Shown here: positions 1 through 33,955 of the stretch, piece after piece
How the letters are laid out: every line of letters begins with the position of its first letter
How positions within the stretch are numbered: the first letter of the stretch is position 1
Assembly (NCBI GenBank): GCA_963924555.1
Contig: OZ004592.1
Location: 5,270,001 to 5,334,000 of the forward strand
Direction of reading: 5' to 3'
From: Crambe crambe
Lineage: Eukaryota > Porifera > Demospongiae > Poecilosclerida > Crambeidae
Length of the DNA: 64,000 bases
Program-made: the position numbers and the translations under genes
Notes under the pieces: generated by a model
What the model saw: the letters and a program-made list of their open reading frames with translations, nothing else
Database searches by the model: none
What the model was told of the DNA's origin: nothing

Positions 1-1672
1 CATATATCTGACTTCCAGCAAAATCTGCTGTGTTGTTGATGAAGAGTACTTTGATTCCACTCAAGACTTCAGTATCATCTATTTCACTACAAGGATCGAT
101 CTGATAGAAGCATATTGGACGTATATTCTGATTGCACTGATCTTGTACAAATATCCCCCCGCCAACTGAAGTTGCATGGTTGTGAGACAGGGTTAGTGTG
201 GTATTGGGAGTCATGATCACGTACGAAGCCTCACAGAGGTGAATCCCACCACCCTTATACCCAGTATTGTTAAAGAGAGTTACGTTTCCTTTGAAGGCTA
301 CAATCGAGTGGAAGGCTGCTATAGCTGTAGCACTGTTATGTTCAAATAAACTGTCCTCGATCAATAATTTACCTGAATACTGGTGCACATAAAGTACAGC
401 ATTGAATTCATTGAGAATATATTTCTCGCAGGCTAGTATCTTGGGAATCGTTTGATTTACAAAACGACATTTATTGATATAAATTGAAACAATTTGGGAC
501 TGTATATTGAAACCTTCAACCATCATAGCAGTCCCAAGATCAGGATTAGTGCAGCTGGCCACAATCCAATTACTGTCAAAGTGAATATTTATTAGAAAAA
601 TTTCCACATCCTTCAAGTACCCCTTTCGTGGGTTCAATCGGATAGAAATACCTCCTCCAACATTCTCGTTAAATCTACAATCTGCAATGTAAAATCTGTA
701 ACTATTACTGTTACTCTTGACTTGTATGAAGATTCCTCCTCCATAAAGTGCTTTCCCTTGAGTGAATGTGCTGTTGATAATACTAATGCTACTTGTACTC
801 AGTGTTGATTCAGAACTCTCATGTGATGTTATTACAGCCAAATTTCCTCCATAAAAGATGTGGCTTAGATGGTGTTTGTTAGTTGAAGCTAAATTGTTAC
901 TCATGGTAGAATTAACAATGTGCACTTGCATACCAGCATACTGCATTAGAACTATCAAACCAGAGGCAAAGAAAGTGTTCGATTCACCTTTTAGAAATCT
1001 TGAGTATTCAATTGTTATGTTTATGTTTCTATTTGAAGGTCCCTCATATTGATGGTACCACAACACAGCATTTCCTCCAATCGATTTATAACCAGTGCCT
1101 TTATTATCTCGAAAAATGGAGTTCTTGATACAGGATGACCCATAAATCTCTTTCATGAAAATCCCGTAGCCATCAGAATTCTGCATGGTGGTGTTAGTGA
1201 TTTCAAGATCGGTTATTTTGTTCAGATATAAACCGATTTTCAAATCTTTATAGAAAGGGTGAGTTTCTATGAATTGTACGTGTTTGCTACATCCAGTGAA
1301 TACCATACCTAAAAGCTTCAAGTATCTGATATTTTGAAATTCAAAACCAACACCTTTTTTATCACATTCAATCTTGGTGATATTGTATGCTTCATTCCTT
1401 CCCTTTCTATAACTTGATAGACTGAGTCTGTGCAGATCAGTGAAGATCACATTTTTATCCAAGTGATGAAGTCCAGGAAAAAAGATGAATTCGGTATAAT
1501 TGGACTCAAAATAAATGCTACTGTTTCTAGCATAATTGGCTAGTGTTTCACATGGTGTCCTGTTGTGGCATGCACAACTTTGATCACTTGGTTTCACATA
1601 GAAACACACTGTACTGGATACTGAGACTATGCATCCAGCAAGAAGCAGAAGTAATACTCTAGTTATGATCAT
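1..1672 (-). CDS. beta-helix multi-TM surface protein, subfamily A (5' part only)
   Basis: The reading frame opens at an ATG at 1672-1670 and stays open to the left edge, giving about 557 residues; the rest lies outside the window. The first about 20 residues (MIITRVLLLLLAGCIVSVSS) form a signal peptide. After it come repeats of the FxxN ... GGGI / GGNLAV type, with many N-x-S/T sequons, as expected for an extracellular right-handed beta-helix. The first 100 residues differ from the copies at 2654-6388 and 10721-14425, so this is a separate subfamily. It still shares the later blocks (GYKGGGIHLCEAS, NTTLTLSHNHA, AGSQIYG). By analogy the missing 3' end should encode the Cys-rich knot and TM bundle. 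The broken copy at 8375-10011 has the same 5' half. Function unknown; cell-surface recognition or adhesion is inference. Confidence 0.8.
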   Translation of the reverse strand, partial: MIITRVLLLLLAGCIVSVSSTVCFYVKPSDQSCACHNRTPCETLANYARNSSIYFESNYTEFIFFPGLHHLDKNVIFTDLHRLSLSSYRKGRNEAYNITKIECDKKGVGFEFQNIRYLKLLGMVFTGCSKHVQFIETHPFYKDLKIGLYLNKITDLEITNTTMQNSDGYGIFMKEIYGSSCIKNSIFRDNKGTGYKSIGGNAVLWYHQYEGPSNRNINITIEYSRFLKGESNTFFASGLIVLMQYAGMQVHIVNSTMSNNLASTNKHHLSHIFYGGNLAVITSHESSESTLSTSSISIINSTFTQGKALYGGGIFIQVKSNSNSYRFYIADCRFNENVGGGISIRLNPRKGYLKDVEIFLINIHFDSNWIVASCTNPDLGTAMMVEGFNIQSQIVSIYINKCRFVNQTIPKILACEKYILNEFNAVLYVHQYSGKLLIEDSLFEHNSATAIAAFHSIVAFKGNVTLFNNTGYKGGGIHLCEASYVIMTPNTTLTLSHNHATSVGGGIFVQDQCNQNIRPICFYQIDPCSEIDDTEVLSGIKVLFINNTADFAGSQIY

Positions 1673-2216
1673 AGCTTAGTGACCAGCTTGATACTTGGAA
1701 GTTCTAGAGCTATCACATTCAATTCAGCAGGGGAAAAAAAAAAAAAAATTATTGTTAGCGGGCGCGCGCGAGACTAACGATAAGGTTGTAGATTTGAGCA
1801 TGCGCAGTTAAAACCTACTGTCTCATGTATGTAAGTTTTCAACCAGTAACTATAGCTTTCCAGGAACCAGTAAGTTAGATAGTTTGATAGTTGATTGACC
1901 GCACAGCATATGAGAATATGCATGACTATCTAGCTTTAGCTAACAGTAAACCTAGCTAGTTATTTCAGAGAATATCTTGGGATTGATTGTAGCTAACTTG
2001 CTCCAGTCTCATGCCCAGTAATGAGTTATTTATCTATTCAATATTTATTTTTTTAGGCTTTAGCTACTTGCCAACTTTGGCTAAGTTTATATGATCTCTT
2101 ACTCTGATTATTATTGTGATCATTGTCTGGATTGAGAGGTTCCACAGTACTATGCCGTATCCATGATCCAATTTCAATAGGAGAAAGTGTACTATCACGT
2201 TAGTAGTAGATCATGT
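1673..2216. other. upstream flank of the subfamily A gene
   Basis: There is no coding signal here. The stretch holds a CG-rich partial palindrome (about 1754-1779) and a GCATGCGC motif (1798-1805), about 125 bp before the start codon at 1672. It is clearly homologous to 10012-10498, upstream of the chimeric pseudogene, so promoter and gene duplicated together. Confidence 0.6.
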
Positions 2217-2640: not shown

Positions 2641-2653
2641 CATAGTCATGTGT

Positions 2654-5600
2654 TTAGTTCCTGTTAAATGATGTGTTCACTTCATATTCGTCTCCATCTA
2701 CATTATTGGCATATCCTGTTAGTGGCTGATAATTGCTCCTCTTAAATACGCAACATAACTTCCTGAAGATAATCTTCAATTTTTGTGGCAGCAGACGAGA
2801 GATATTAGCAAAACATTTCTTCTTACGAAGTTGCATCAGGATCTGGTATAGCACAGTTCCTAATAGAGTGACAGTAGCTATGGTGATGGATATGCAACTA
2901 GCAGTGATGGCATAAGACCAGTTCCTGTTTATACTAAAATATATCACTGCAATAGAGAGCATACCAAGATTTATTATGTATGAAGAAGATAGATAGTTCA
3001 GATATTTTCGTTCGTACACTCCACCAAGTGCCCAAGCAGTGGCTAGGACAATAATACAGGCTGAATTTATGCCAGCGAGAACCTTCTGGTGATTATATCC
3101 CGTAATGAATGTAATGTACATGAAGGACCGGACGAGAAGAAGAAACCCGTTCCAGAATCTGCAGTGAGGTTTGATGATGTGGGGACAAGTGTAAGCATCG
3201 ATGAGAGGTTTGAATTTGTTGACCCACTTCAAGAGTCTCCAATGAGAGTACCTCTGCAGAGGCTGGATGCAAAGGAGAGTAAGAGTGAAAGTGAAGGATA
3301 AAATGGCGAATATGAGGCCAGCAATGAAGAGGGGAATGTGTTTCTTGTCAAAGTATGGAATATTGCCATCATAAAGCATCACAAATAAACGCTTTTCAGA
3401 TCCAGGAAGATTGAAGTATGTAAATGTTAGTGAATATATGATGCAGAGGTTAACAGACGAATAAGAAAAGAGGAGAATAGTGGCTAAAACTTGTATGGAA
3501 TTGTACCCGATAAAGTTGGCAAATCGTGTGAATTTTCGACACAGTAAGACTATAACGATTGCAATCATCCACAGGTAGATGACAAGAAGAAACTGCAACC
3601 AAGTACGACCAACCATGTCCAGCTTATGATAGAAGCAGTTATTGTATCCATAGTTCAGATTAATGACATAGATGATCGAATTCAGCAGTTGTTGATACGG
3701 TGAATCAAGGTTGGTGTTAGGCAGAAGGGTTGATTTGAATATGAAGAAAATATTAGCATAAAAGAGGAGCTCACTCAGCATTCCTTGGGTAACTGTAAAG
3801 TTAATGAGGAGCAGCAGGAATACAAACACAATTCCACTGAAAAGAAACATTATTGACCATCCGATAGTCTTTGCTATGGGGTAACCTGTGCAATTAATGC
3901 AGATTGATGAGCCTGTCGAGATACTATAGCCTTGTTTACACATGCCACACAATATGCCAGATCTGTTATTGCTGCATTGAAGATCTTGGGAAAAATTAGT
4001 GGAGGTTGTAATAATGGAGACATTATGTGATTGTCCATAGCAGTAATCCAAAGGACAATGTAAGTGTAGTATCAGTCCTGGACTTGATGTGTTGTAAAAC
4101 CCTAACCACTTGGGGGACGGTCGCTGAATCACAGTTGTGTCATTTTCAATAAGACATTTGAATCCTGCCTGAGTGATGTCTGGAGTCTTGGTACATACAT
4201 AAGGCTCATCATCATTTCCTGTTGAAATGAATCCAATAGGTGTATCTTTTATATTGACAATGAGTTGAATGACTTTTGAATTGAGCAAATAATTAGCATG
4301 TTGATTCTTCACTTGTACTTTGACCCATACTTTGTTTTTATTAGTGTACACTGTGACTGGTACAATGGTACAATTTTTCCCCAAAGGTTTCAGTGCATCA
4401 GCCTGTACAATTCCTTGATCTGATTCAGTAACACTTAAATCTACTACTCCTGGAACAGTTCCATTATATTGTCCCACAGTCACTAGAGACACATTAAACT
4501 TTTGTCCTGAGTATACTGAAAAATTCTGACTCTCAATATTGCAGTCTGGGAGCATGCTCTCATTACAGAAACAAACATTCAAGGGATCAGATGAAATATA
4601 TGAAGTGTCATTAAGAGGGTAAGTGAAGTTGAATAGTTCGAAAAAGATGTCATTATGATAATTGGGTATGTGGCAGTTATCCACTGTACCCCCAAAGATC
4701 TGACTACCAGCATAATCAGCTGTGTTATCAATCATGTAAATCTTCGTGGTATCCAAGATCTCAGTAAAGTTTTGATCAGAATCTGTATTTAGTTGGTAAT
4801 AGCATAAAGGTTCTGATTCGGCACATCTGCTTTCAGCAAAAATTCCTCCACCAGAAACATTGGCATGGTTGTTGGAGATGGTGAGTGTTGTGTTGGGGTT
4901 AATGATCATGAAAGAAGCTTCACAGAGGACAATTCCTCCTCCTTCATAGCCTGTGTTGTTGTGAATTGTGACATTCCCACTGAAGTATAAATGTGATCGG
5001 AAAGCTGCCATGGCTGTTACTTTATTATGAATAAAAGTACAATCTTCAATCATCAATCGTCCAACTTGATATGAAGAATATAACACTGCACTCCCAGAAC
5101 TGTATGTTCCATTATAAGGAGTATTAGTGTGGTATTCAAATACACAGTTAGAAAGAAGAATTGAATAGAAAGTATACTGTTTAAAAGAAAATAATTGATC
5201 ATAAAAGTTAGTAACAGTAATGCCAATTCCAGAATCATTATTTGTTTTCACAGTGTTATTGTTAAACAAGCATTCATTCAATTCAAAATTATTTGTAGCA
5301 TTGCAATTCATACTTTTCCCACTGGAAATTCTTCGAATCAACTCAAGATAGATTGCTCCTCCATCTTTATGAGCAATGTTATTAGTGAAGCTGGAATTTT
5401 CCACAATCAGTTGATTGGTGCAATCAATAGTATTGAGGAAGTATTTCACATACATTCCAGCACCCATCAGTGCTTCTCCTCCATCAAACCTGCTGTTGTG
5501 AATCTTCACAGTGTTATTCCTTGAAGTGTTATAATATATCACAGCTAAATTACCTCCTGTGAAGTTACGAGGTTCATAATCCTCACCAGTGTATTTTGCA

Positions 5601-6388
5601 GTATTACCTTTCATGACAACATCGTCGATAGTTACATCAATATTAGGATCTTCCAAGTATATTACCAGTCCTGTGGCATAATAACGGTGAATCGATAGTC
5701 CATGAAGAAACTGTGAGTTGTAGATTTCTACATGAGCATGCCGTGTGTCATAACCATGGCAATCTTGGTATGTGAGTGCAGCATTTCCTCCATGATATTT
5801 CTGGACTGAATCTTTGGCTTGATTACGGTCAAAATTACAACCATCGATGGTTACATGACCATATAAACATAATGAAAAGAGTCCAAATCCTTTAGAATCT
5901 TGTATGTTGACTCTGGACATGCTAAAATTGATGATATCATTCAAGAACAAGCCGACTCTTAATGGTATATCATCTACTATTATGCCAGTCTTAATCATGC
6001 TACAATTTGTGATGGTCAGTCCACTGATCATGAGGTTAGTCACCTTCTCAAATGTCAGTCCAGTATCACCACTGCACTCAATCACCACTTCCTTGCTCTC
6101 ATTAGAACTCTTCAGACATATATCAGCAACATCACTAAAAGCCATGTTTCCCTCCAACAAGTGCATACCAGCCAAGAAGCTGAATATTGTGTTGTTGGAG
6201 CTGAAATACAAGTCAGGATCTGCAGTGTAGTTGGACAGAGTTGGGCAAGCAGCATGTGGTATGGAATAACATTGGCTTGCATAGTGGTCAGGATACACAT
6301 AGTAAACCTTGCCTGCACACATGGCACTTAACAAACACAGAATCAAAGAGAGCACTTTGAACGTTATTTCCTTTCTACGTAACTGCAT
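2654..6388 (-). CDS. beta-helix multi-TM surface protein B (intact, 1244 aa)
   Basis: This is a single-exon frame. I chose the ATG at 6388 over an upstream GTG (6406) because it places a clean signal peptide (about residues 1-25, ending CAGK) at the N-terminus. Residues about 30-620 carry beta-helix repeats (FTNN, GGAIYLE, GGGIVLCEAS, SGGGIFAE) and many N-glycosylation sequons. Residues about 628-720 look like a beta-sandwich. Residues about 803-835 are a Cys knot (SGILCGMCKQGYS...CINC). About nine TM helices follow from 841 to 1185, with the loop KPLIDAYTCPHIIKPHCRFW before helix 7. The tail has YQPL, a YxxPhi sorting-type motif, and an acidic DGDEYEV. The architecture implies a plasma-membrane protein with a large glycosylated ectodomain. 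Ligand and signalling are unknown. The repeats resemble the GGA-I/FxxN repeats of chlamydial Pmp proteins, a fold-level likeness only. Confidence 0.9.
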   Translation of the reverse strand: MQLRRKEITFKVLSLILCLLSAMCAGKVYYVYPDHYASQCYSIPHAACPTLSNYTADPDLYFSSNNTIFSFLAGMHLLEGNMAFSDVADICLKSSNESKEVVIECSGDTGLTFEKVTNLMISGLTITNCSMIKTGIIVDDIPLRVGLFLNDIINFSMSRVNIQDSKGFGLFSLCLYGHVTIDGCNFDRNQAKDSVQKYHGGNAALTYQDCHGYDTRHAHVEIYNSQFLHGLSIHRYYATGLVIYLEDPNIDVTIDDVVMKGNTAKYTGEDYEPRNFTGGNLAVIYYNTSRNNTVKIHNSRFDGGEALMGAGMYVKYFLNTIDCTNQLIVENSSFTNNIAHKDGGAIYLELIRRISSGKSMNCNATNNFELNECLFNNNTVKTNNDSGIGITVTNFYDQLFSFKQYTFYSILLSNCVFEYHTNTPYNGTYSSGSAVLYSSYQVGRLMIEDCTFIHNKVTAMAAFRSHLYFSGNVTIHNNTGYEGGGIVLCEASFMIINPNTTLTISNNHANVSGGGIFAESRCAESEPLCYYQLNTDSDQNFTEILDTTKIYMIDNTADYAGSQIFGGTVDNCHIPNYHNDIFFELFNFTYPLNDTSYISSDPLNVCFCNESMLPDCNIESQNFSVYSGQKFNVSLVTVGQYNGTVPGVVDLSVTESDQGIVQADALKPLGKNCTIVPVTVYTNKNKVWVKVQVKNQHANYLLNSKVIQLIVNIKDTPIGFISTGNDDEPYVCTKTPDITQAGFKCLIENDTTVIQRPSPKWLGFYNTSSPGLILHLHCPLDYCYGQSHNVSIITTSTNFSQDLQCSNNRSGILCGMCKQGYSISTGSSICINCTGYPIAKTIGWSIMFLFSGIVFVFLLLLINFTVTQGMLSELLFYANIFFIFKSTLLPNTNLDSPYQQLLNSIIYVINLNYGYNNCFYHKLDMVGRTWLQFLLVIYLWMIAIVIVLLCRKFTRFANFIGYNSIQVLATILLFSYSSVNLCIIYSLTFTYFNLPGSEKRLFVMLYDGNIPYFDKKHIPLFIAGLIFAILSFTFTLTLLCIQPLQRYSHWRLLKWVNKFKPLIDAYTCPHIIKPHCRFWNGFLLLVRSFMYITFITGYNHQKVLAGINSACIIVLATAWALGGVYERKYLNYLSSSYIINLGMLSIAVIYFSINRNWSYAITASCISITIATVTLLGTVLYQILMQLRKKKCFANISRLLPQKLKIIFRKLCCVFKRSNYQPLTGYANNVDGDEYEVNTSFNRN

Positions 6389-7160: not shown

Positions 7161-7390
7161 TTATGACACATGGTGATGTCTGACGGATGGATGTTGAGTT
7201 CTGTTCTCTCCATATGATATTATTTTGTCTTCATCAGCGTTGGCATACCCTGTCAGTATCTGGTAATCACTCCTCTTGAATACATGGCACAAATCCCTGA
7301 AGGAGTTCCTGATCTTCAATGGCACCAACGCATAGCAAAGTCCTCAGCAAAGTGACAGCAGTTACACTGATGGATATGCAACTGGTAGTG
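7161..7390 (-). pseudogene. 3' relic of an F-type beta-helix/TM gene
   Basis: This matches the 3' end of the intact gene at 20910-24587: the last TM segment, the tail frame (YQILTGYA-like), the stop region and downstream bases. A deletion of about 42 bp removes part of it, and similarity stops abruptly at about 7390. No open frame of useful length remains. It lies to the right of gene B exactly as gene F lies to the right of pseudogene E, which marks it as the leftover of a duplicated block. Confidence 0.8.
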
Positions 7391-7958: not shown

Positions 7959-8340
7959 AGCACACTGAATGTAGACTATAAATAGAGACATAATAGCACA
8001 CTGGATGTAGACTATAAATAGAGACATAATAGCACACTGGATGTAGACTATAAATAGAGACATAATAGCACACTGGATGTAGACTATAAATAGAGACATA
8101 ATAGCACACTGAATGTAGACTATAAATAGAGACATAATAGCACACTGGATGTAGACTATAAATAGAGACATAATAGCACACTGGATGTAGACTATAAATA
8201 GAGACATAATAGCACACTGGATGTAGACTATAAATAGAGACATAATAGCACACTGGATGTAGACTATAAAATAGACACACTGAGATATAGCTAATAGCAC
8301 ACTGAATGTAGAGATATATTAGCACACTGACTATAAATAG
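7959..8340. repeat. 36-bp minisatellite, array 2
   Basis: Nine near-identical 36-bp units start at 7959, 7995, 8031 and so on to 8247, followed by degenerate pieces. Each unit contains GTAGACTATAAATAGAGACA, which includes a TATAAATA string. It is more homogeneous than array 1, so it was expanded or homogenised more recently. It abuts the 3' end of the chimeric pseudogene. Confidence 0.97.
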
Positions 8341-8374
8341 AGATATAATAGTTACAGCATAGTTAGTTATGTGT

Positions 8375-10011
8375 TTAGTTCCTGTTAAATGATGTGTTCA
8401 CTTCATATTCGTCTTCATCTACATTATTGGCATATCCAATCAGTTGCTGATAATTGCTCCTCTTAAATATGCAACATAACTTCCTGAAGATAATCTTCAA
8501 ATTTTGTGGCAGCAGACAAGAGATATTAGCGAAGCATTTCTTCCTACGAAGTTGCATCAGGATCTGGTATAGCACAGTTCCTAATAGAGTGACAGTAGCT
8601 ATGGTGATGGATATGCAACTAGCTGTGATGGCATAAGACCAATTCCTGTTTATACTGAAATATGCTATAGCAGTGGAGAGCATACCAAGATTTATTATGT
8701 ACGAAGAAGATAGATAGTTCAGATATTTTCGTTCATACACTCCACCAAGTGCCCAAGCAGTGGCTAGGACAATAATACAGGCTGAATTTATGCCAGCGAG
8801 AACCTTCTGGTGATCATATCCCGTAATGAATATAATGTACATGAAGGACCGGATGAGAAGAAGGAACCCGTTCCAGAATCTGCAGTGAGGTTTGATGATG
8901 TGGGGACAAGTGTAAGCATCTATGAAAGGTTTGAGTTTGTTGACCCACTTCAAGAGTCTCCAATGACTTGTATGAAGATTCCTCCTCCATAAAGTGCTTC
9001 CCTTGAGAATCTGCAGTGAGGTTTGATGATGTGGGGACAAGTGTAAGCATCTATGAGAGGTTTGAGTTTGTTGACCCACTTCAAGAGTCTCCTATGACTT
9101 GTATGAAGATTCCTCCTCCATAAAGTGCTTTCCCTTGAGTCCATAAAGTGCTTTCCCTTGAGTGAATGTACTGTTGACAATACTAATGCTACTTGTACTC
9201 AATGTTGATTCAGAACTCTCATGTGACGTTATTACAGCCAAATTTCCTCCATAAAAGATGCGGCTTAGATGGTGTTTGTTAGTAGAAGCTACATTATTAC
9301 TCATGGTAGAATTAACAATAGTGTTTGATTCACCATTTAGAAATCTTGAGTACTCAATTGTTAAGTTTATGTTTCTATTTGAAGGTCCCTCATATTGATG
9401 GTACCACAACACAGCATTTCCTCCAATCAATTTATCACCAGTGCCTTTATTATCTTGAAAAGTAGACTTCTTGATACAGGATGACCCATAAATCTCTTCC
9501 ATGAAAATCCCATAGCCATCAGAATTCTGCACGGTGGTGTCAGTGATTTCAAGATCAGTTATTTTGCTCAGATACAAACCAATTTTTAAATCGAAAGGGT
9601 GAGTTTCTATGAATTGTACATGTTTGCTACATCCAGTGAATACCATACCTAAAAGCTTCAAGTGTCTGATATTTTGAAATTCAAAACCAACACCTTTTTC
9701 ATCACATTCAATCTTGGTGATATTGTATGCTTCATTCCTTTCCTTTCTGTAACTTGATAGACTGAGTCTGTGCAGATCAGTGAAGACCACATCTTTATCC
9801 AAGTGATGAAGTCCAGGGAAAAAAAGAATTCGGTATAATTGGACTCAAAATAAATGCTACTGTTTCTAGCATAATTGGCTAGTGTTTCACATGGTGTCCT
9901 GTTGTGGCATGCACAACTTTGATCACTTGGTTTCACATAGAAACGCACTGTACTGGATACTGAGACTATGCATCCAGCAAGAAGTAGAAGTAATACTCTA
10001 GTTATGATCAT
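8375..10011 (-). pseudogene. chimeric beta-helix/TM pseudogene C (A-type 5' half, B/D-type 3' end)
   Basis: From the ATG at 10011 the copy follows the subfamily A gene (1-1672) to about 9163, through the signal peptide and the beta-helix up to a GKALYG block. It then jumps to the C-terminal TM region of the B/D type (8375 to about 8965: DAYTCPH, VLAGINSACIIVLATAW, tail with YQQL). The middle of the gene is missing. A net -1 change in a T-run near 9817-9826 shifts the frame after about 60 residues, and stops separate the two halves. The junction carries a 131/132-bp tandem duplication (8876-9006 and 9007-9139) and a further 23-bp duplication (9117-9139 and 9140-9162). It is not expected to make a working protein. 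Confidence 0.9.
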
Positions 10012-10700: not shown

Positions 10701-10720
10701 CAGCATAGTTAGTTATGTGT

Positions 10721-13700
10721 TTAGTTTCTGTTAAATGACATGTTCACTTCATATTCATCTCCATCTACATTATTGGCATATCCAGTCAGTGGCTGATAAT
10801 TGCTCCTCTTAAATACGCAACATAACTTCCTGAAGATAATCTTCGATTTTTGTGGCAGCAGACGAGAGATATTAATGAAGCATTTCTTCTTATGAAGTTG
10901 CATCAGGATCTGGTATAGCACAGTTCCTAATAGAGTGACAGTAGCTATGGTGATGGATACACAACTAGCTGTGATAGAGTAAGACCAATTCCTGTTTATA
11001 CTGAAATATGTTACTGCAATAGAGAGCATACCAAGATTTATTATGTATGAAGAAGATAGATAGTTCAGATATTTTCGTTCATACACTCCACCAAGTGCCC
11101 AAGCAGTGGCTAGGACAATAATACAGGCTGAATTTATGCCAGCGAGAACCTTCTGGTGATCATATCCCGTAATGAATATAATGTACATGAAGGACCGGAC
11201 GAGAAGAAGGAACCCGTTCCAGAATCTGCAGTGAGGTTTGATGATGTGGGGACAAGTGTAAGCATCTATGAGAGGTTTGAGTTTGTTGACCCACTTCAAG
11301 AGTCTCCAATGAGAGTACCTCTGCAGAGGCTGGATGCAGAGGAGAGTAAGAGTGAAAGCGAAGGATAAAATGGCGAATATGGAGCCAACAATGAAGAGGG
11401 GAATGTGTTTCTTGTCAAAGTATGGAATATTGCCATCATAGAACATCACAAATAAACGCTTTTCAGATCCAGGAAGATTGAAGTATGTAAATGTTAGTGA
11501 ATATATGATGCAGAGATTAACAGACGAATAAGAAAAGAGGAGAATAGTGGCTAAAACTTGTACGGAATTGTACCCGATAAAGTTGGCAAATCGTGTGAAT
11601 TTTCGACACAGTAAAACTATAACGATTGCAATCATCCACAGGTAAATGACAAGAAGAAACTGCAACCAAATACGACCAACCATGTCCAGTTTATGATAGA
11701 AGCAGTTATTGTATCCATAGTTCAGATTAATGACATAGATGATCAAATTCAGCAGTTGTTGATACAGTGAATCAAGGTTGGTATTAGGCAGAAGGGTTGA
11801 CTTGAATATGAAGAAAGTGTTAGCATAAAAGAGGAGCTCGCTCAGGATTCCTTGGGTGACTGTAAAGTTAATGAGGAGCAGCAGGAATACGAACACAATT
11901 CCACTGAAAAGAAACATTATTGACCATCCGATAGTCTTTGCTATGGGGTAACCTGTGCAGTTAATGCAAATTGACGAGCCTGTCGAGATACTATAGCCTC
12001 GTTTACACATGCCGCACAATATCCCAGATCTATTATTGCTGCATTGAAGATCTTGGGAAAAATCAGTGGAGGTTGTAATAATGGAAACATTTTGTGATTG
12101 TCCATAGCAGTAATCCAAAGGACATTGTAAGTGTAGCATCAGTCCTGAACTAGTGTTGTTTGATGTGTTGTAAAACCCTAACCACTTGGGGACTGGTCGT
12201 TGAATCACACCTGTGTTGTTTTCAATAAGACATTTGAATCCTGCCTGAGTGATGTCTGGAGTCTTAGTACATTCATAAGGCTCATTATCATTTCCTGTTG
12301 AAATAAATCCAATAGGTGTGTCTTTTATATTGACAATGAGTTGAATGACTTTTGAATTGAGCAAATAATTAGCATGTTGGTTTTTTACTTGTACTTTGAC
12401 CCATGCTTTGCTTTTATTAGTGTAGATGGTGACTGATTTGTCAGTACATTCCTTTTCCAATGGTGCCACTGCATCAGTTACAATGACCCCATGATCTGAG
12501 TCACTTAAGCGTAAATCCACTACTCCCGGAACAGTTCCATTATACTGTCCCACAGTCACTAGAGACACATTAAACTTTTGTCCCGAGTATACTGAAAAAT
12601 TCTGACTCTCAATATTACAGTCTGGGACCATTTCATTACAGAAGCAAACATTTAAAGGATCAGATGAAATATATGAAGTGTCATTATGAGGGTAAATGAA
12701 GTCAAATAGTTCGAAAAAGATATCATGATGATAATTCGGTATGTGGCAGTTATCCACTGTACCTCCAAAGATCTGACTACCAGCATAATCAGCTGTGTTG
12801 TTGATCATATTAATCTTTGTAGTATTCAAGATCTCAGTCATGCTTAGGTGAGAATCTTTATTTAGTTGGTAATAGCATAAAGGTTCTGATTGGGCACATC
12901 TGCTTTCAGCAAATATTCCTCCACCAGAAACATTGGCATGGTTGCTGGAGATGGTGAGTGTTGTGTAGGGGTTAATGATCATGAAAGAAGCTTCACAGAG
13001 GACAATTCCTCCTCCTTCATAGCCTGTGTTGTTGTGAATTGTGACATTCCCACTGAAGTATAAATGTGATCGGAAAGCTGCCATGGCTGTCACTTCATTA
13101 TGAATAAAAGTACAATCTTCAATCATCAATCGTCCAACTTGATATGAAGAATATAACACTGCACTCCCAGAACTGTAGGATCCATCACTCAATGGAGTAT
13201 TACTGTTATACTCAAATAAACAGTTGAAAAGAAGAATTGAATAATAAGTGTACTGACTTGAAAAAAACTGATGCAAATAAAAGTTAGTGATAGTAATACC
13301 AATTCCAGCATCATCGTTAGTTTTCACACTGTTATTGCTAAACAAGCATTCATTCAATACAAAATTATTCGTAGCATCGCAATTCATTCTTTCCCTACTG
13401 GAAATTCCTTGAATTAACTCAAGACAGATTGCTCCTCCGTCTTTATGAGCAATGTTATTAGTGAAGTTGGAATTCTCCACAATCAGTTGATTCGTGCATT
13501 CTCTTGTGTTGAGGAAGTATAGCACATACATTCCAGCACCCATCAATGCTTCTCCTCCATCAAAACTGCTATTGCGAATCTTCACTGTGTTATTCCTTGA
13601 AATGTCATAATAGATCACAGCTAAATTGCCTCCTTGGATATCACGAGGTTCATAATCCTCATCAGTGTATTTTGCAATATTACCTGCCATGATAGCATTG

Positions 13701-14425
13701 TTGATACTTACATCAATATTAGGATATTCCAAGTATATTACCAGTCCTGTGGCAATGTGACGGTGAATCGATAGTCCATGAAGAAACTGTGAGTTGTAGA
13801 TTCCTACATGAGCATGCTGAGTGTCATAGCCAGGGCAATTGAGGTATGTGAGTGCAGCATTTCCTCCGTTATACTTCTGGACTGAGTCATTGGCTTGGTT
13901 AGAATCAAAAATACTATCATCAATGATTACATGACCATATAAACATGATGAAAAGAATCCAAATCCTTTAGAATCTTGTATGTTGACTCTGGACATGTTG
14001 AAATTGATAATATCACTCAAGTACAAGCCAACTCTTAATGGTATATCATCTTTTATTATGCCAGTCTTAATCATGCTACAATTCTTGATGGTCAGTCCAC
14101 TGATCATGAGGTTAGTCACATTCTCGAATGTCAGTCCAGTATCAGCACTACACTCAATCACCACTTCCTTGCTCTCATTAGAACTCTTCAGACATATATC
14201 AGCAACATCACTAAAAGTCATGTTTCCCTCTAACAAGTGAGTACCAGCTAAGAAGCTGAATATTGTGTTGTTAGAGCTGAAATACAAGTCAGGAAATGCA
14301 GTGTAGTTAGACAGAGTAGGGCAAGCAGCATGTGGTACAGCCTCAGGGCACACATGGTACACCTTTCCTGCACGAACCACACCAAACAGGCACCAAGTTA
14401 GAAGTAGCACCTCAGAGAGCATCAT
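10721..14425 (-). CDS. beta-helix multi-TM surface protein D (intact, 1234 aa)
   Basis: A single-exon frame from tandem ATGs at 14425. The signal peptide (MMLSEVLLLTWCLFGVVRAG) matches that of gene F rather than gene B, while most of the rest is close to B. The order is the same: beta-helix repeats with GGAICLE, GGGIVLCEAS and SGGGIFAE, the beta-sandwich-like block (SGQKFNVSLVTVGQYNGT), the Cys knot (GILCGMCKRGYS...CINC), about nine TM helices with the invariant DAYTCPH loop, and a tail with YQPL and DGDEYEV. The mixture of an F-like N-terminus and a B-like body suggests exchange between copies. It is probably a plasma-membrane glycoprotein; function unknown. Confidence 0.9.
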   Translation of the reverse strand: MMLSEVLLLTWCLFGVVRAGKVYHVCPEAVPHAACPTLSNYTAFPDLYFSSNNTIFSFLAGTHLLEGNMTFSDVADICLKSSNESKEVVIECSADTGLTFENVTNLMISGLTIKNCSMIKTGIIKDDIPLRVGLYLSDIINFNMSRVNIQDSKGFGFFSSCLYGHVIIDDSIFDSNQANDSVQKYNGGNAALTYLNCPGYDTQHAHVGIYNSQFLHGLSIHRHIATGLVIYLEYPNIDVSINNAIMAGNIAKYTDEDYEPRDIQGGNLAVIYYDISRNNTVKIRNSSFDGGEALMGAGMYVLYFLNTRECTNQLIVENSNFTNNIAHKDGGAICLELIQGISSRERMNCDATNNFVLNECLFSNNSVKTNDDAGIGITITNFYLHQFFSSQYTYYSILLFNCLFEYNSNTPLSDGSYSSGSAVLYSSYQVGRLMIEDCTFIHNEVTAMAAFRSHLYFSGNVTIHNNTGYEGGGIVLCEASFMIINPYTTLTISSNHANVSGGGIFAESRCAQSEPLCYYQLNKDSHLSMTEILNTTKINMINNTADYAGSQIFGGTVDNCHIPNYHHDIFFELFDFIYPHNDTSYISSDPLNVCFCNEMVPDCNIESQNFSVYSGQKFNVSLVTVGQYNGTVPGVVDLRLSDSDHGVIVTDAVAPLEKECTDKSVTIYTNKSKAWVKVQVKNQHANYLLNSKVIQLIVNIKDTPIGFISTGNDNEPYECTKTPDITQAGFKCLIENNTGVIQRPVPKWLGFYNTSNNTSSGLMLHLQCPLDYCYGQSQNVSIITTSTDFSQDLQCSNNRSGILCGMCKRGYSISTGSSICINCTGYPIAKTIGWSIMFLFSGIVFVFLLLLINFTVTQGILSELLFYANTFFIFKSTLLPNTNLDSLYQQLLNLIIYVINLNYGYNNCFYHKLDMVGRIWLQFLLVIYLWMIAIVIVLLCRKFTRFANFIGYNSVQVLATILLFSYSSVNLCIIYSLTFTYFNLPGSEKRLFVMFYDGNIPYFDKKHIPLFIVGSIFAILSFAFTLTLLCIQPLQRYSHWRLLKWVNKLKPLIDAYTCPHIIKPHCRFWNGFLLLVRSFMYIIFITGYDHQKVLAGINSACIIVLATAWALGGVYERKYLNYLSSSYIINLGMLSIAVTYFSINRNWSYSITASCVSITIATVTLLGTVLYQILMQLHKKKCFINISRLLPQKSKIIFRKLCCVFKRSNYQPLTGYANNVDGDEYEVNMSFNRN

Positions 14426-14976: not shown

Positions 14977-15267
14977 TCAGTTTACTCCATCTCTATCATA
15001 CTCATCTCCGTCAAAGTAGTCATTCATAGCCTGATAGTCATTTCTCCTTTTAAAAATGTTGGGTACATTAATATTCTTGAACATATTTTTCAATGAACGT
15101 GGAAGTAAGCAACTTAAGCACTTCCTCTTGTGCACTTGCACTGTGACATGGTACACAATAATTCCAAGTAGAGTTATTGTGGCTATTGTAATGGATACAG
15201 AACCAGCAGTGAAAAGAGAAGAGCTGGAATAAGCTGCGATGAAAGACATAACTCTGATGTTTATTAT

Positions 15268-15625
15268 TGTAACAGTGTTAAGTAGTTTTAATAAGTGTTA
15301 ACTTTAGTTAATACTTTTGTGGCCTAGCCATCCATTGATTGTGGATAGTGACAGTTTAGCTACAGATTGATGTCATGTGTTGTGTCTGAGATTTAGTTAT
15401 ATTTTGTGTCATAGTCCACGACTGACTGTAAACTCCACCATGCATTCACATCAATGGGTCACTGCATACACACATCATACATTAGGTCATCATCTCTCTG
15501 TCTAGTATATAAGTAGTAGTCTTGTCAGTTATTAGTGTGCAATAATTGTGAGTTATAAGATAATATTTGCTGCTGTAAACCTCCTACTCTGATTGCGAGA
15601 TATTCCGCAAGTCGGCCACATTACA
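15268..15625 (+). mobile_element. solo LTR of an LTR retrotransposon
   Basis: A 358-bp insertion begins TGTAA and ends TTACA, flanked by TTAT on both sides (or ATTAT, depending on where the end is placed). Deleting the insert plus one flank copy gives 'gtttattatgaaagaag', which aligns with the uninterrupted paralogs (for example 'atttattatgtatgaag' near 11037). It contains a TATA-like TATATAAG at 15506-15513, in plus orientation, as expected for an LTR promoter. No internal retrotransposon sequence is present, so it is a solo LTR. Confidence 0.85.
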
Positions 15626-16408
15626 TTATGAAAGAAGAAGACAGGTAATTCAGGTATGTTTTAGTGCACACCCTCCAGATGCCCAGTGAACTATCAGACA
15701 TGTGACGCTCATGCCAGTAAGAAGTTTTCTGTGTTCGAATCCTGTGATGATAAACACATCCACAGCAGAGCGGATCAGGAGCAGAAACCCGTTCCAGAAT
15801 CTGCAGTGGGGTTTGATGATGTGGGGACAAGTGTAAGCATCGATGAGAGGTTTGAGTTTGTTGACCCACTTCAAGAGTCTCCGGTGAGAGTACCTCTGCA
15901 GAGGTTGGATGCAGAGGAGAGTAAGAGTGAAAGCCAAGGATAAAACGGCAAATGCACAGGCAATAATGAAGAGAGGGATATGTTTCTTGCTAAAGTAAGG
16001 GACATTGCCATCAAATAACATTACAATTTTTTGTTGTTTTGATCCGGGGAGATCAAAGTGTGCTAATGCAAGTGAATACAAAATGCCAAAGTTAAGTGGT
16101 GAGTATGATAAGAGAAGAATAGTTGCTAAAACTTGTACGGAATTGTACCCGATACAGTTAGCAAATCGTGTGAATTTTCGACACAGTAAGACTATAATGA
16201 TTGCAATCATCCACAGGTAGATGACAAGAAGAAACTGCAACCAAGTACGTCCAATCATGTCCAGTCCATGATAAAAGCAGTTATTGTGTCCATAATTTAA
16301 GTTCACTATATTAATGATCATGTAGAGTACCTGTTTGTAACTTGAGGAACTGATACTGTCATAAGGTAGAAAAGTTGACTTGAAAGCAAAAAATATATTA
16401 GCATAGAA

Positions 16409-17834
16409 CAGTCTAATCGCCAGCGTATATTTACAATACTTTTTATATTACATGATGACGTCATAATTTTTGAGAAAATGGCCGCTGAGGTACATCTCTT
16501 GAGCTCGGCTTTTCATCAGACTAGAAACCTTATAGGTTGTAGGTTTATTCTCAACAGATGGTGATAGGCTTATTCTACCTTACCATCTGCTATGTAAGTA
16601 AACAGTAACTCTTTTTAGCATAGAATAGCCATGGTGGTTGAGAGTCATGGAAGTTTAGATGGCTTTTAAGGGCCCTTCAGAGAGATGAACAGAAGTTATC
16701 TTACTACAAACATATAGTCAGTATGTATTCTAACATGTATGTCCATACTTTAGGTTGATACTTACATTTTACAGCAAATGGCCCATGTTTGTATATATAA
16801 GTGTATGTTTAATATAATCATAGCAGTGTTAGAATCATTCTCAAGTTAGAATTTTTCATCTGTCTCAAATAATTTTCATGTCTACTTTGATAGGGTAGAC
16901 TGTTCATTACTGATCTGGCTCAAATAAGGGTTGATATGTCGGGTGATGGGCAATATTTAGAGTACTGTTCTCTGTGTTGGATCTGATACACATTCACTCC
17001 CTATGAGCTTGCAAGTTGTAAGGTACTGTAAACCTGAATGTAGTGTTCCTTGAAAGTGTGTTTACTATGTTATTCACAGTGAACGCCACCAGTTATTTCC
17101 CTGTTAGAAGGTGTGGCTATGTTAGTATGCTTGTAGACCCTGTTTTGCATTGCAGTTTAATATACCAGTAGTTACTGGTTTAGGCCTTCGGTCCTGGGTG
17201 AAAATTTACATTTCCTGCTACTCGGTTATAGCAAGCTTGACATTGGGTCCAAAATTAACATTTGTTCCATATTCTCTGGATGTATACTGCACGCTCTCCT
17301 TATGACACAAATGTAGCAGGGGCCACGTTTACTCCGATGTACTTTACTTGTCATTGATCACTGCAGGCACTGAAGAAACAAAGCTGTCAAGACTGTAGTC
17401 ATTATAGTGTGTATTGTGTGATTTATTTGTGGCAAAGATATGGTGTCATTTATACTGTGTTATTATGTTTGAACAGAAATGATTGTTGGATATATACATG
17501 CAGTAAGTATTCCTCTATAGAATGTACCTGGTATCAAAATGAAATAACTTGTTTACAGGAAATGGCCCTATAATCCAACAATACACTTGAAATTGAGACA
17601 TGGCTTGATAACTCTCTAGTGGTAATAGCTACGTGTACCAAATTCACACTAAAGGTCATCTGTGCCGGCCTAAAACTGCCGCTCAAGTCTTGTTGATTTA
17701 TGTTGACAGAATCCAGAGATACAAGGTCATAAAAAATTTCCTAGTATCCCAGTGTCCGTATATTCCGCGTGATGAGCATGTAAATGAAATTGTATTGCGT
17801 AAATACAACCGGATGCACGCTGGCGATTAGACTG
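16409..17834. mobile_element. 1.4-kb DNA transposon with 18-bp perfect TIRs
   Basis: The terminal inverted repeat CAGTCTAATCGCCAGCGT is present at 16409-16426 and as its exact reverse complement at 17817-17834. AGAA flanks both ends (16405-16408 and 17835-17838). Removing the element and one AGAA restores a gene alignment with the paralogs at 21990-22060 and 11800-11870. I saw no transposase; a 65-residue frame at 17633-17830 runs into the TIR and is unsupported. The CAGT ends with a 4-bp duplication do not let me name a superfamily. It is probably non-autonomous. Confidence 0.9.
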
Positions 17835-20041
17835 AGAACAGGAATTCACTCATTGTGCCCTGAGTGACTGTGAAGTTGGTGAGCAGCACTATAAGTATAA
17901 TCACCATACCAGCTACAGCAAACATGACTGACCAACCTACGGTCTTTTTTAGTGGGTAATTCATGCAGTCGATGCAAAGACGTGAGCCTATTGCTCTGCT
18001 GTAATTCTGTTTACACTGGCCACATAGTATCCCAGATCTATTATGGTTGCATTGATTATCTTGAGAAAAATATGTGGAATTTATACTGATATAAACAGGA
18101 CCTTTCCGACAAAATTCAAAGGGGCAGTGGTTGTGAAGTATAAATCCTGAAGCATTTGAATCTGGTGATTCATAATAGCCTAACCACTTGGGGGGTGGTC
18201 GTAGAATCACACCTGTGTCGTTTGCAATAAAACATTTGAATCCTTCCTTGGTGATATCAGACACTGGAGTCTTGGTACATATATAAGGCTCATGAATGTT
18301 TCCTGTTGAGTTAAATCCAATTGGTGTGTCATTTATATGGACAATCATCTTAGTCATCTTTGAATTGAGCAAATAATTAGCATGTTGATTCTTCACTTGT
18401 ACTTTGACCCATACTTTGTTTTTATTAGTGTACACTGTGACTGGCACATTGGTGCAATTCTTTCCCGAAGGTTTCAGAGCATCAGCTTGTATACTTCCTT
18501 GATTTGATTCAGTAACACTTAAATCCACTACTCCTGGAACAGTTCCATCATACTGTCCCACAGTCACTAGAGACACATTAAACCTTTGTCCCGAGTATGT
18601 AAAAAAAAAGTCTGATCATCAATATTGCAGTCTGGAAGCATGTTCTCATTACAGAAACAGGCATTCAAGGGATCAGATGAAATATATGAAGTGTCATTAT
18701 GAGGGTAAATGAAGTCGAATAGCTTAACAATCTTCAATCATCAATCGTCCAACTTGATATGAAGAATATAACACTGCACTCCCAGAACTGTAGGATCCAT
18801 CACTCAATGGAGTATTAATGTTATGCTCAAATACACAGTTAGAAAGAAGAATTGAATAGTATGTGTATTTTATTTAAAAAAATAAATAAATTTGTGACAG
18901 TGATTCCAATCCCAGCATCTTTGTTAGTTTTCACAGTGTTATTGGTAAACTGGCATTCACTTAACATGAAATTATTTGTAGCACTGCAATATGTGTAATT
19001 CCCAGTGGATACTCCTTGAACCAACTCAAGATAGATTGCTCCTCCATCTTTATGAGCAATGTTATTAGTGAAGTTGGAATTTTCCACAATCAGTTGATTA
19101 GTGCAATCCATAGTATTGAGAGAGTATATCACATACATTCCAGCACCCATCAGTGCTTCTCCTCCATCAAAACTGCTATTGTGAATCTTCACTTGAAATG
19201 TTATAATAGATCACAGCTAAATTACCTCCTTGGATATCACGAGGTTCATAATCTTCATTGGTATATTTTGCAATATTACCTGCCATGGTAGCATTGTTGA
19301 TGGTTACATCAATATTAGGATATTTCAAGTATATTACCAGTCCTGTGGCAATATGATGGTGAAGTGATAGTCCACGAAGAAACTGTGAGTTGTAGATTTC
19401 TACATGAGCATGCTGTGTGTCATAGTCATGGAAATCTTGGTATGTGAGTGCAGCATTTCCTCCATGATACTTCTGGACTGGATCATTGGCTTGGTTAGAA
19501 TCGAAATTACAATCATCAATGGTTGCGTGACCATAATAAACAGTAATGAAAAGAGTCCAAATCCTTTAGAATCTTGATGTTGACTCTGGACATGCTAAAA
19601 TTGATAACATCATTCAAGTACAAGCCAACTCTTAATGGTATATCATCTTTTATTATGCCAGTCTTAATCATGCTACAATTCTTGATGGTCAGTCCACTGA
19701 TCTTGAGGTTAGTCACATTCTCAAAATATCAGTCCAGTATCAGCACTGCACTCAATCACCACTTCCTTGCTCTCATTAGAACTCTTCAGACATATATCAG
19801 CAACATCACTAAAAGTCATGTTTCTCTCTAGCAAGTGCATACCAGACAAGAATCTGAATGCTGTGCTGTTGGAACTGAAATACAAACCAGGATCCGCAGT
19901 GTAGTTAGACAGAGTTGGGCAAGCAACATATGGTATGGAATGACATTGGCTTGCATAGTGTTCAGGATACACATAGTAGACCTTGCCTGCACACATGGCA
20001 CTTAACAAACACAGAATTAAAGAAAGCACCTTGAATAGCAT

Positions 20042-20909: not shown

Positions 20910-23900
20910 TTATGACATAATATGGTGATGTCTGATCAATGGATGTTGAGTTCTGTTCTCTCCATATGACATTATTTCATCATCATCAGCGTTGGCATAC
21001 CCTGTCAGTATCTGGTAATCCTTCCTCTTGAATGCAAGACGCAAATTCCTGATGGACTTCCTGACACTCAGTGGCACCAAATGGGATAGGAATCTTCTCT
21101 TCCGAAATTGTGTTAAAATATGGTATAGCAAAGTCCCCAGCAAAATGATAGCAGTTATACTGATGGATATGCAACTGGTAGTGACAGCGGCAGAAGCATG
21201 TGGATCATTGAAGGAAATTGCTAAAATGGAGAGCACGCAACAGTTTATGATGTAAGAGGATGAAATATAATTGAGGTAGCTCCTTTGATACACTCCTCCC
21301 AGTGACAGAGCAGTGGCTAAGACGATAACACAGATGATACTTATGCTTGTGAGAATAACTCGGCTGTTGTAACCTGCAATCAGAAAGATGTAGAATGTGG
21401 ACCTGACTAATAAAAGGAACCCGTTCCAGAATCTGCAGTGGGGTTTGATGATGTGGGGACAAGTGTAAGCATCGATGAGAGGTTTGAGTTTGTTGACCCA
21501 CTTCAAGAGTCTCCAGTGAGAGTACCTCTGCAGAGGTTGGATGCAGAGGAGAGTAAGAGTGAAAGCCAAGGATAAAATGGCGAATATGGAGCCAACAATA
21601 AAGAGGCCAATGTGTTTCTTGCTAAAGTATGGAACATTGCCGTCATAGAGCATCACGATCTTCTTCGACTCAGGAAGTTGGAGGAATGTAAAAGCAAGTG
21701 AATACAGAATACCAAGGATAAGTGATGAATATGAGAAAAGAAGAATAGTTGCTAAAACTTGTACAGAATTATACCCGATACATTTGGCAAATCGTGCGAA
21801 TTTTCGACACAGTAAGACTATAACGATTGTAATCATCCACAGGTAGATGACAAGAAGAAACTGCAACCAAGTACGACCAACCATGTCCATTCCATGAAAA
21901 AAGCAATTTCTGTATCCATAGTTGAGATTAATGATGTTAATGATCAGACTAAGCATTTGTTTGTAAGATGAATCAACAGCTGTACTAGGCAGGAAGGTTG
22001 ACTTGAAAACAAAGACAGTGTTAGCATAGAAGAGGAGCTCACTCAACATTCCTTGGGTGACAGTGAAGTTGATGAGGAGTAGCATGAATACAAACACTAT
22101 GCCGCTTATGATGAATCCCAGTGACCATCCTATAGTCTTTTTCATGGGGTAATCCCTGCAATCAATGCAAACAAATGAACTCATTGAGAGACTGTAGTTT
22201 GGTTTACACTGGCCACAAAGTATCCCAGATCGATCGTTATTGCACTGGTCATCTTGAAAGAAAATCTTGTGAGTTACTTTTATATGAACATTTCTTGCAC
22301 GACAATAATCTAGTGGACAGTGTGGTTGTACAAAAAACTGTGATCTATGGTAGCCTAACCACTTGGGAGTTGGTCGTAGAATCACACCTGTGTCGTTTTC
22401 AATAAAACATTTGAATCCCTCCCTGGCAATATTTTCTGGACATATATAAGGCTCACTACGATTTCCTGTTGAGTTAAATCCAATTGGTGTGTCGTTTATA
22501 TGGACAATCATCTTAGTCATCTTTGAATTGAGCAAATAATTAGCATGTTGATTTTTCACTTGTACTTTGACCCATACTTTGTTTTTATTAGTGTACACTG
22601 TGACTGGCACATTGGTGCAATTTTTCCCTAAAGGTTTCAGAGTATCAGCTTGTACACTTCCTTGATCTGATTCAGTAACACTTAAATCCACTACTCCTGG
22701 AACAGTTCCATTATACTGTCCCACAGTCACTAGAGACACATTAAACTTTTGTCCCGAGTATGTAAAAAAAGTCTGATTATCAATACTGCAGTCTGGGAGC
22801 ATGCTCTTATTACAGAAACAAACATTCAAGGGATCAGATGAAATATATGAAGTGTCATTTTGAGGATGAGTGAACTCGAATAGATCAAAAACAATGTCTT
22901 TATGAACATTCGGGATGTGGCAGTTGTCTGCTGTGCCCCCAAAGATCTGACTTCCAGCATATACAGCTGTGTTGTTAGTTAAATATATTTTAGTTCCATC
23001 CAAGATCTCAGTCACATTCTCGTTGGGTTCTATTATTAGTTGGTAAAAGCACAAAGGTTCTGATTGGGCACATCTTCCTTCAGCAAAGATTCCTCCACCA
23101 GAAACATCGGCATGGTTGTTGGAGATGGTGAGTGTTGTATTGGGGTTAATGATCATGAAAGAAGCTTCACAGAGGACAATTCCTCCTCCTTCATAGCCTG
23201 TGTTGTTATGAATGAGGATATTCCCATTGAAGTATAGATATGATCGGAAAGCTGCCATGGCTGTTACTTCATTATGAATAAAAGTACAATCTTTAATCAT
23301 CAATCGTCCAACTTGATATGAAGAATATAACACTGCACTCCCAGAACTGTAGGATCCATCACTCAATGGAGTATTAGTGTTATACTCGAATACACAATTG
23401 GAAAGAAGAATCGAATAGTATGTTACCCCTGTTAAAAAAACTGGATTTAAAAATAAATTGGTGACGGTTATACCAATCCCAGCATCCTTGTGAGTTTTCA
23501 CACTGTTATTAGCGAACTGGCATTTACTTAATATGAAATTATTTACAGTATTGCAGTGTGTGTAGTTCCTGGTAGAAAGACCTTGAATCAACTCAAGATA
23601 GATTGCTCCTCCATCTCTATGAGCAATATTGTTAGTGAAGCTGGAATTTTCCACAATCAGTTGATTGGTGCAGTCTCTTGTGTTGAGGAAGTATATCACA
23701 TACATTCCAGCACCCATCAGTGCTTCTCCTCCATCAAACCTGCTGTCGTGAATCTTCACAGTGTTATTCCTTGAAGTGTTATGATAGATCACAGCTAAAT
23801 TCCCTCCTGTGATATTACGAGGTTCATAATTCTCATCAGTGTATTTTGCAATATTACCTACCATAGTAGCATTGTTGATAGTTACATCAATATTAGGATA

Positions 23901-24587
23901 TTTCAAGTATATTACCAGTCCTGTGGCAAAATAACGGTGAATTGATAGTCCATGAAGAAACTGTGAGTTGTTGATTTCTACATGAGCATGCTGTATGTCA
24001 TAGCCATAGCAATTGAGGTATGTGAGTGCAGTATTTCCTCCGTTATACTTCTGGACCGGGTCTTTGGCTTGATTAGATTCAAAAATACAATCATCAATGG
24101 TTACATGACCATATAAACATCTTGAAAAAAGTCCAAATCCTTTAGAATCTTGTATGTTGACTCTGGACATGCTAAAATCGATAATATCATTCAAGTACAA
24201 GCCAACTCTTAATGGTATATCATCTTCTATTATGCCAGTCTTAATCATGCTACAATTCTTGATGGTCAGTCCACTGATCATGAGGTTAGTCACATTCTTG
24301 AGTGTCAGTCCAGTATCAGCACTGCACTCAATCACCACTTCCTTGCTTTCATTAGAACTCTTCAGACATATATCAGCAACATCACTAAAAGTCATGTTTC
24401 CCTCCAATAAGTGCTTACCAGTCAAGAAGCTGAATATTGTGTTGTTGGAGCTGAAATACAAGTCAGGATCTGCGGTGTAGTTAGACAGAGTAGGGCAAGC
24501 AGCATGTGGTACAGCCTCAGGGCACACATGGTACACCTTGCCTGCACAAACCACGCACCAAGTTAAAAGTAGCACCTCAGAGAGCAT
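20910..24587 (-). CDS. beta-helix multi-TM surface protein F (intact, 1225 aa)
   Basis: A single-exon frame from the ATG at 24587, with signal peptide MLSEVLLLTWCVVCAGK. The beta-helix part is close to genes B and D. From the Cys knot on (GILCGQCKPNYS...CIDC) it diverges: the TM region has its own sequence (SLGFIISGIVFVFMLLLINF and so on), and the tail is longer and His-rich (ends HHHIMS). It still keeps the DAYTCPH loop and YQIL as YxxPhi. The pattern of a conserved ectodomain joined to a diverged TM/tail, opposite to what separates A from B, suggests modular exchange. A decayed copy of its 3' end lies at 7161-7390. Predicted membrane glycoprotein; function unknown. Confidence 0.9.
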   Translation of the reverse strand: MLSEVLLLTWCVVCAGKVYHVCPEAVPHAACPTLSNYTADPDLYFSSNNTIFSFLTGKHLLEGNMTFSDVADICLKSSNESKEVVIECSADTGLTLKNVTNLMISGLTIKNCSMIKTGIIEDDIPLRVGLYLNDIIDFSMSRVNIQDSKGFGLFSRCLYGHVTIDDCIFESNQAKDPVQKYNGGNTALTYLNCYGYDIQHAHVEINNSQFLHGLSIHRYFATGLVIYLKYPNIDVTINNATMVGNIAKYTDENYEPRNITGGNLAVIYHNTSRNNTVKIHDSRFDGGEALMGAGMYVIYFLNTRDCTNQLIVENSSFTNNIAHRDGGAIYLELIQGLSTRNYTHCNTVNNFILSKCQFANNSVKTHKDAGIGITVTNLFLNPVFLTGVTYYSILLSNCVFEYNTNTPLSDGSYSSGSAVLYSSYQVGRLMIKDCTFIHNEVTAMAAFRSYLYFNGNILIHNNTGYEGGGIVLCEASFMIINPNTTLTISNNHADVSGGGIFAEGRCAQSEPLCFYQLIIEPNENVTEILDGTKIYLTNNTAVYAGSQIFGGTADNCHIPNVHKDIVFDLFEFTHPQNDTSYISSDPLNVCFCNKSMLPDCSIDNQTFFTYSGQKFNVSLVTVGQYNGTVPGVVDLSVTESDQGSVQADTLKPLGKNCTNVPVTVYTNKNKVWVKVQVKNQHANYLLNSKMTKMIVHINDTPIGFNSTGNRSEPYICPENIAREGFKCFIENDTGVILRPTPKWLGYHRSQFFVQPHCPLDYCRARNVHIKVTHKIFFQDDQCNNDRSGILCGQCKPNYSLSMSSFVCIDCRDYPMKKTIGWSLGFIISGIVFVFMLLLINFTVTQGMLSELLFYANTVFVFKSTFLPSTAVDSSYKQMLSLIINIINLNYGYRNCFFHGMDMVGRTWLQFLLVIYLWMITIVIVLLCRKFARFAKCIGYNSVQVLATILLFSYSSLILGILYSLAFTFLQLPESKKIVMLYDGNVPYFSKKHIGLFIVGSIFAILSLAFTLTLLCIQPLQRYSHWRLLKWVNKLKPLIDAYTCPHIIKPHCRFWNGFLLLVRSTFYIFLIAGYNSRVILTSISIICVIVLATALSLGGVYQRSYLNYISSSYIINCCVLSILAISFNDPHASAAVTTSCISISITAIILLGTLLYHILTQFRKRRFLSHLVPLSVRKSIRNLRLAFKRKDYQILTGYANADDDEIMSYGENRTQHPLIRHHHIMS

Positions 24588-26415: not shown

Positions 26416-33955
<7,540 letters not shown>

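Follow-up and report, generated by a model that had tools for sequence, protein, structure and literature searches.

We analysed a stretch of 64,000 nucleotides (nt) from the sponge Crambe crambe (assembly GCA_963924555.1, contig OZ004592.1, positions 5,270,001 to 5,334,000), called the window below, whose first 24.6 kb are occupied by a tandem array of genes for large, probably surface-exposed membrane proteins; all coordinates are positions in the window (Table 1). Three open frames on the minus strand, 2654-6406, 10721-14452 and 20910-24611 (1250, 1243 and 1233 codons), contain genes A, B and C, which share 73-87% pairwise identity over almost their full length; at the G+C content of the window, an open run of 1230 codons would be expected by chance with a probability of about 10^-37. 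The open frames suggest that the genes are single-exon. The window edge truncates gene D, which is visible up to residue 558, with its tail outside the window, and belongs to a divergent subfamily by its amino acid (aa) identity to A (34% by tblastn over 584 columns, 38% by pairwise alignment over 526 codons). An earlier note on this DNA had listed four intact or edge-cut genes, two long pseudogenes and one relic, all sharing the same parts from signal peptide to tail. Each of these copies was found, and A, B and C are alike along nearly the whole length; the sharing of every part does not extend to D, seen to residue 558 only, or to one pseudogene that lacks its middle.

Three of the seven copies are dead. 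In the long pseudogene, about 133 codons are missing at 18727, and about 380 further bp separate its last two pieces. The insert in its membrane-coding part is a DNA transposon, the terminal inverted repeats of which were found by script and the flanking TTCT on both sides by eye; it encloses no complete stop-to-stop frame of 150 codons, and a blastn search with 16421-17840 revealed no second copy within the window. The other long pseudogene turned out to be a fusion rather than a plain copy: 9140-10602 corresponds to the D region 740-2319 with 88-95% nt identity, sequence upstream of the gene included, the 3' end is 93-94% identical to A and B at the nt level, and a 131-bp duplication marks the join. 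This chimera also has a frame change near 9820, a stop between two frames and a missing middle. The region of the relic, 6881-7328, is 77% identical to 20652-21080. Minisatellites of the same 36-bp type are present 3' of A, the chimera and B, whereas none was reported 3' of C. Two sequences of about 260 bp upstream of gene C (24694-24954 and 27683-27939) form an inverted pair with 88% identity.

The live copies are mosaics. Between A and C, synonymous divergence (dS) per 60-codon window swings from 0.07 to 1.63, being 0.10-0.16 at residues 77-316, the N-terminal part of the beta-helix described below, versus 0.9-1.4 at residues 1097-1250. After a signal stretch of few codons, the beta-helix is the domain most alike in the A-C and B-C pairs (dS 0.26 and 0.23, compared with 0.60-0.66 for the transmembrane (TM) part, 0.8-0.9 for the tail and over 1.4 for the Cys module). 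At 786 two-state sites, the odd-one-out labels form 279 runs, compared with 417 ± 11 (minimum 375) in 5000 shuffles, and such a shortage of runs, together with the swinging dS, points to gene conversion or recombination. Since C resembles A and B more in the N-terminal beta-helix than in the membrane domain and tail, conversion has spread ectodomain sequence across lineages, not kept it diverse. Genes A and B match at 2411-6261 and 10487-14337 (91.6% nt identity), and the match between D and the chimera extends into the minisatellite beside B; thus, the D-A block was probably duplicated as one unit. The description in the earlier note is supported as far as a tandem, recombining and probably surface-exposed family with pseudogenes is concerned.

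Purifying selection was found in all three pairs of live genes, the whole-gene ratio of nonsynonymous divergence (dN) to dS being 0.35-0.38. When A, B and C pairs, which are not independent, were pooled, dN/dS was 0.42 (95% interval 0.35-0.51) for the ectodomain and 0.29 (0.22-0.38) for the TM part, the most strongly constrained; purifying selection acts on the ectodomain when paralogs are compared. Residues 377-436, considered as a positively selected hypervariable stretch, were rejected as such, dS (0.48-0.96) being raised along with dN (0.19-0.27), and look like a stretch that escaped conversion. Pseudogene pieces compared with live genes gave dN/dS of 0.21-0.68 in 12 comparisons; these values fit recent death, and are also lowered by the constraint on the live copies.

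The intact proteins begin with hydrophobic N-termini, which may be the proposed signal peptides. A, B and C each carry 31-35 N-x-S/T sequons, potential sites of glycosylation. In the structure model, parallel strands coil over several turns, predicting a right-handed beta-helix, and the beta-helix ectodomain that had been proposed is further backed by Pfam matches: Beta_helix (PF13229) in gene D (E = 3.4e-7, over the cut-off) and Chlam_PMP (PF02415), whose cut-off is exceeded by C, reached by A and missed by B. A structure search of BFVD gave nine matches at E <= 0.001, including giant-virus and phage beta-helix proteins, for which no ancestry is claimed, and a PDB sequence search returned no match for gene A or for the ectodomain profile. 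The Cys module that follows has the pattern C-x8-C-x2-C-x12-C-x2-C. In genes A, B and C and in the long pseudogene, this stretch matches DUF7630 (PF24633) with E values from 1.4e-4 to 1.7e-2, all below the curated cut-off, EGF-type matches are at chance level (E of 1.5 or more), and no reliable model of the stretch was obtained, so that the knot claimed for it is unsupported; a literature search by the name DUF7630 found no paper.

Hydrophobic segments of the membrane domain were called where the mean hydropathy over 19 residues passed 1.5, with overlapping windows merged. Segment 876-895 never reaches this threshold and was added by hand, which gives nine helices in gene A; in this model the tail is cytosolic, with Lys or Arg at 24 of 132 inside residues and 8 of 80 outside ones. 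Nine is the likeliest helix count rather than a finding, and the predicted N-out/C-in orientation follows from charge and from parity with the hand-added segment. The TM part matched no Pfam family, its profile gave 12 matches among PDB sequences, every one with E >= 1, and, with E limits of 1 or 5, the listings showed none of the 7tm Pfam profiles of G-protein-coupled receptors (GPCRs). Some fragments hit Pfam families such as DsbB, M11L and Rv3651-like, which we ascribe to chance.

All six copies with a preserved tail (A, B, C, the chimera, the long pseudogene and the relic) carry FKR-x(2-3)-YQx[L/M] in a tail that has otherwise diverged (A-C dN 0.47, dS 0.91). The claim of a sorting-motif tail thus holds as far as a kept motif of the YxxPhi type is concerned, and YQx[L/M] would fit the YxxPhi endocytic signal provided that the tail faces the cytosol. 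The charge balance and the basic residues that follow the last helix would agree with such a position, but the helix number varies from 7 or 8 by hydropathy to nine with the hand-added segment.

Beyond the array, the window contains a second tandem row, of rolling-stone-like frames, and an Msx-type homeodomain frame, both of them marks of an animal genome. Pfam Rost (PF21534) is matched over the cut-off by five of the six frames in the row; the one at 39823, without such a match, was assigned by its evident similarity to the neighbours. Rolling stone has been linked to the fusion of myoblasts in flies. AG/TC microsatellites lie at 29365-29556 (96 units) and 63503-63566 (32 units), and a GA-rich low-complexity stretch at 62892-63358 produces spurious long frames on both strands. 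An Rfam search gave no matches, and a tRNA search with the bacterial setting found none.

Table 1 Features of the receptor-like gene array and its surroundings in the window.
Feature	Position	Strand	Remarks
Gene D, cut by window edge	1..1672	-	hydrophobic N-terminus and beta-helix, 557 codons open from Met
36-bp-type minisatellite directly 3' of gene A	2218..2555		
Gene A, intact frame	2654..6388	-	1244 aa from first Met
Relic	7167..7389	-	C-like 3' end, tail motif YQIL; tblastn and nt comparison
36-bp minisatellite directly 3' of chimera	7959..8279		8.9 copies, 98% matches
Chimeric pseudogene	8375..10011	-	D-like 5' end joined to A/B-like 3' end
131-bp tandem duplication at chimera join	8875..9139		plus 23-bp duplication at 9117-9163
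Minisatellite of same 36-bp type, 3' of gene B	10513..10667		
Gene B, intact frame	10721..14425	-	1234 aa from first Met
Long pseudogene	14995..20041	-	nine tblastn pieces, eight frame changes, transposon inside
Insert in TM-coding part of long pseudogene	16409..17834		1426 bp, 18-bp terminal inverted repeats
Gene C, intact frame	20910..24587	-	1225 aa from first Met
Rolling-stone-like tandem row	25176-50143	-	six frames (25176, 34464, 39823, 41884, 46347, 49310); Pfam Rost
Msx-type homeodomain frame	54254-54934	+	Pfam Homeodomain E 3.5e-22; best PDB match Msx-1, E 5e-26

From these results, we tentatively favour a birth-and-death family of sponge plasma-membrane receptors, in which a glycan- or glycoprotein-binding rod is cycled by its tail and serves uptake or sensing. 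Outside the cell, the glycosylated beta-helix rod would bind polysaccharides or glycoproteins; a short stalk rich in Cys would link the rod with a membrane domain of many, likely nine, passes; and the YQx[L/M] motif in the cytosol would route the receptor through clathrin/adaptor protein (AP)-type endocytosis, so that microbial, food or matrix glycans might be taken up or sensed. New copies would arise by unequal crossing over, and live copies would trade pieces by gene conversion. The anatomy of the genes, the beta-helix fold model, the mosaicism and the pseudogenes are established by the analysis; surface location, TM helix number, cytosolic tail and endocytosis are what we infer here, and the glycan ligand is a guess prompted by the fold alone.

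Several points weigh against this proposal. Residues 540-818 of the structure model are unreliable, a Foldseek search of the ectodomain model against PDB gave 205 matches, none of them at E <= 0.001, and, as beta-helices match one another generically, likeness of fold shows no ligand. Hydrophobic segments above the threshold number only 7 in A, 7 in B and 8 in C, and the roughly nine TM helices first proposed are reached with the segment added by hand; with an even helix number and the N-terminus outside, the tail would lie outside the cytosol. The AlphaFold2 model of the TM part has a predicted local distance difference test (pLDDT) score of 37, and no fold search was based on it. YxxPhi is an endocytic signal that is common by chance, and because A, B and the chimera are closely related, as are C and the relic, the six motifs represent two or three independent lineages. 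The A-B pair shows the opposite of the A-C pattern, with the TM part most alike (dS 0.09, dN 0.02) and higher values in the beta-helix (dS 0.19, dN 0.09) and after it (dS 0.29), as would be expected also of a recognition family. Finally, dN/dS for the core residues 137-316 is 0.71 (95% interval 0.44-1.22), indistinguishable from neutral, in a stretch picked after the windows had been viewed.

The main rival to an uptake or sensing receptor, unlikely in our estimate, is a signalling receptor or channel, in which a seven-TM-like or TRP/polycystin-like many-pass unit would use the beta-helix as a chemical, matrix or mechanical sensor. A large ectodomain on a Cys stalk, followed by a many-pass domain under the strongest constraint, is what such a protein might look like, and the 7-8 hydropathy segments are compatible with a seven-helix unit; however, the TM part has neither a Pfam family nor a relative among PDB sequences, and its AlphaFold2 model is too poor for comparison, which leaves this reading uncontradicted.

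Quite improbable, in our judgement, is that these are allorecognition or individually polymorphic immune receptors, with alleles and copy number varying between individuals and the ectodomain setting compatibility. The tandem copies, pseudogenes, chimera, mosaicism and 3' minisatellites would suit such a locus, as would the A-B dN, higher for the ectodomain than for the TM part, the post hoc core stretch and the distribution of residues variable among A, B and C, which are commoner outside strands (85 of 264 versus 56 of 276 inside, Fisher p = 0.0017, model residues 1-540). Such enrichment in loops is, however, expected in many proteins. Purifying selection across the ectodomain, which the earlier note had held to speak against recognition, was found at the paralog level for the ectodomain overall and could not be separated from neutrality at residues 137-316; as a proxy, the paralogs thus gave no sign of diversifying selection. 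Moreover, dS rises with dN where A and B differ, so that tract exchange accounts for both the A-C/B-C and the A-B patterns without diversifying selection, and gene C resembles A and B more closely in its ectodomain sequence than in its membrane sequence. The many-pass anchor is unlike that of the known single-pass allorecognition receptors. A term search of the main text of the Amphimedon grafting study (PMC5450542) gave no lead to the present family. The overall ectodomain constraint and the spread of its sequence between lineages by conversion leave the self/non-self role suggested in the earlier note unsupported. A more far-reaching version, of similarly low probability, would see here animal recognition receptors of a new class, with a beta-helix on a many-pass unit and a diversity generated by unequal crossing over and conversion, for which the minisatellites would provide recombination platforms, at a polymorphic sponge self/non-self or symbiont-recognition locus.

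We regard as very unlikely a membrane-anchored polysaccharide lyase or hydrolase for feeding or matrix turnover. The nearest folds in the structure search were mostly carbohydrate-active enzymes; however, identity to the listed chains was 8-14%, and YG[KR]D and NEH, two motifs of PL6/AlgE catalysis, are missing from all three genes. Least probable is an ordinary tandem multigene family lacking a recognition or uptake role, its pseudogenes reflecting a recombination-prone stretch: purifying selection in all three pairs and the adjoining rolling-stone-like array would agree with it, and tandem arrays with pseudogenes occur also in families without a recognition role, but alone it leaves unexplained the divergent D subfamily kept in the same array.

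The ectodomain fold is shared with right-handed beta-helix proteins such as polysaccharide lyases and epimerases, phage tailspikes and pertactin-type autotransporters, from which the Crambe family differs in being eukaryotic and in its many sequons, Cys module, many-pass membrane domain and absence of the two catalytic motifs. The Hydractinia Alr complex likewise comprises tandem surface receptors with pseudogenes, which are immunoglobulin-like and single-pass there, in contrast to the beta-helix and many-pass proteins here. The sea urchin Sp185/333 protein is, to our knowledge, unrelated. According to the Sp185/333 study (PMC5103432), that family, like the sponge array, has clustered similar genes, tandem repeats beside the genes, segmental duplication and suggested gene conversion; a general lack of pseudogenes (one is known) and diversity between individuals are reported there, whereas three of the seven sponge copies are dead and one sponge haplotype was read. 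The sponge GPCR repertoire (PMC4302439) is expanded and includes adjacent many-pass receptor genes, resembling the array in this respect, but the array proteins have no GPCR Pfam match. Literature searches for this kind of protein and for sponge recognition families named no such architecture among the titles listed, most subscription papers lying outside their coverage. Scans of viral contigs (2 and 235 pattern matches) and genome contigs (52) found none encoding a relative, which says little, the collections being viral and prokaryotic. Proteins of a similar kind are probably numerous among the unannotated genes of sponges and cnidarians.

The array is a real, actively duplicating and recombining family of probable surface proteins with an architecture for which we found no published name or description, and its interest is moderate. 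Little is known of the molecules behind recognition and glycan uptake in early-branching animals, and the array offers a concrete candidate; even if the proteins are uptake receptors only, they carry a membrane domain that matches nothing in Pfam or, by sequence, in PDB.
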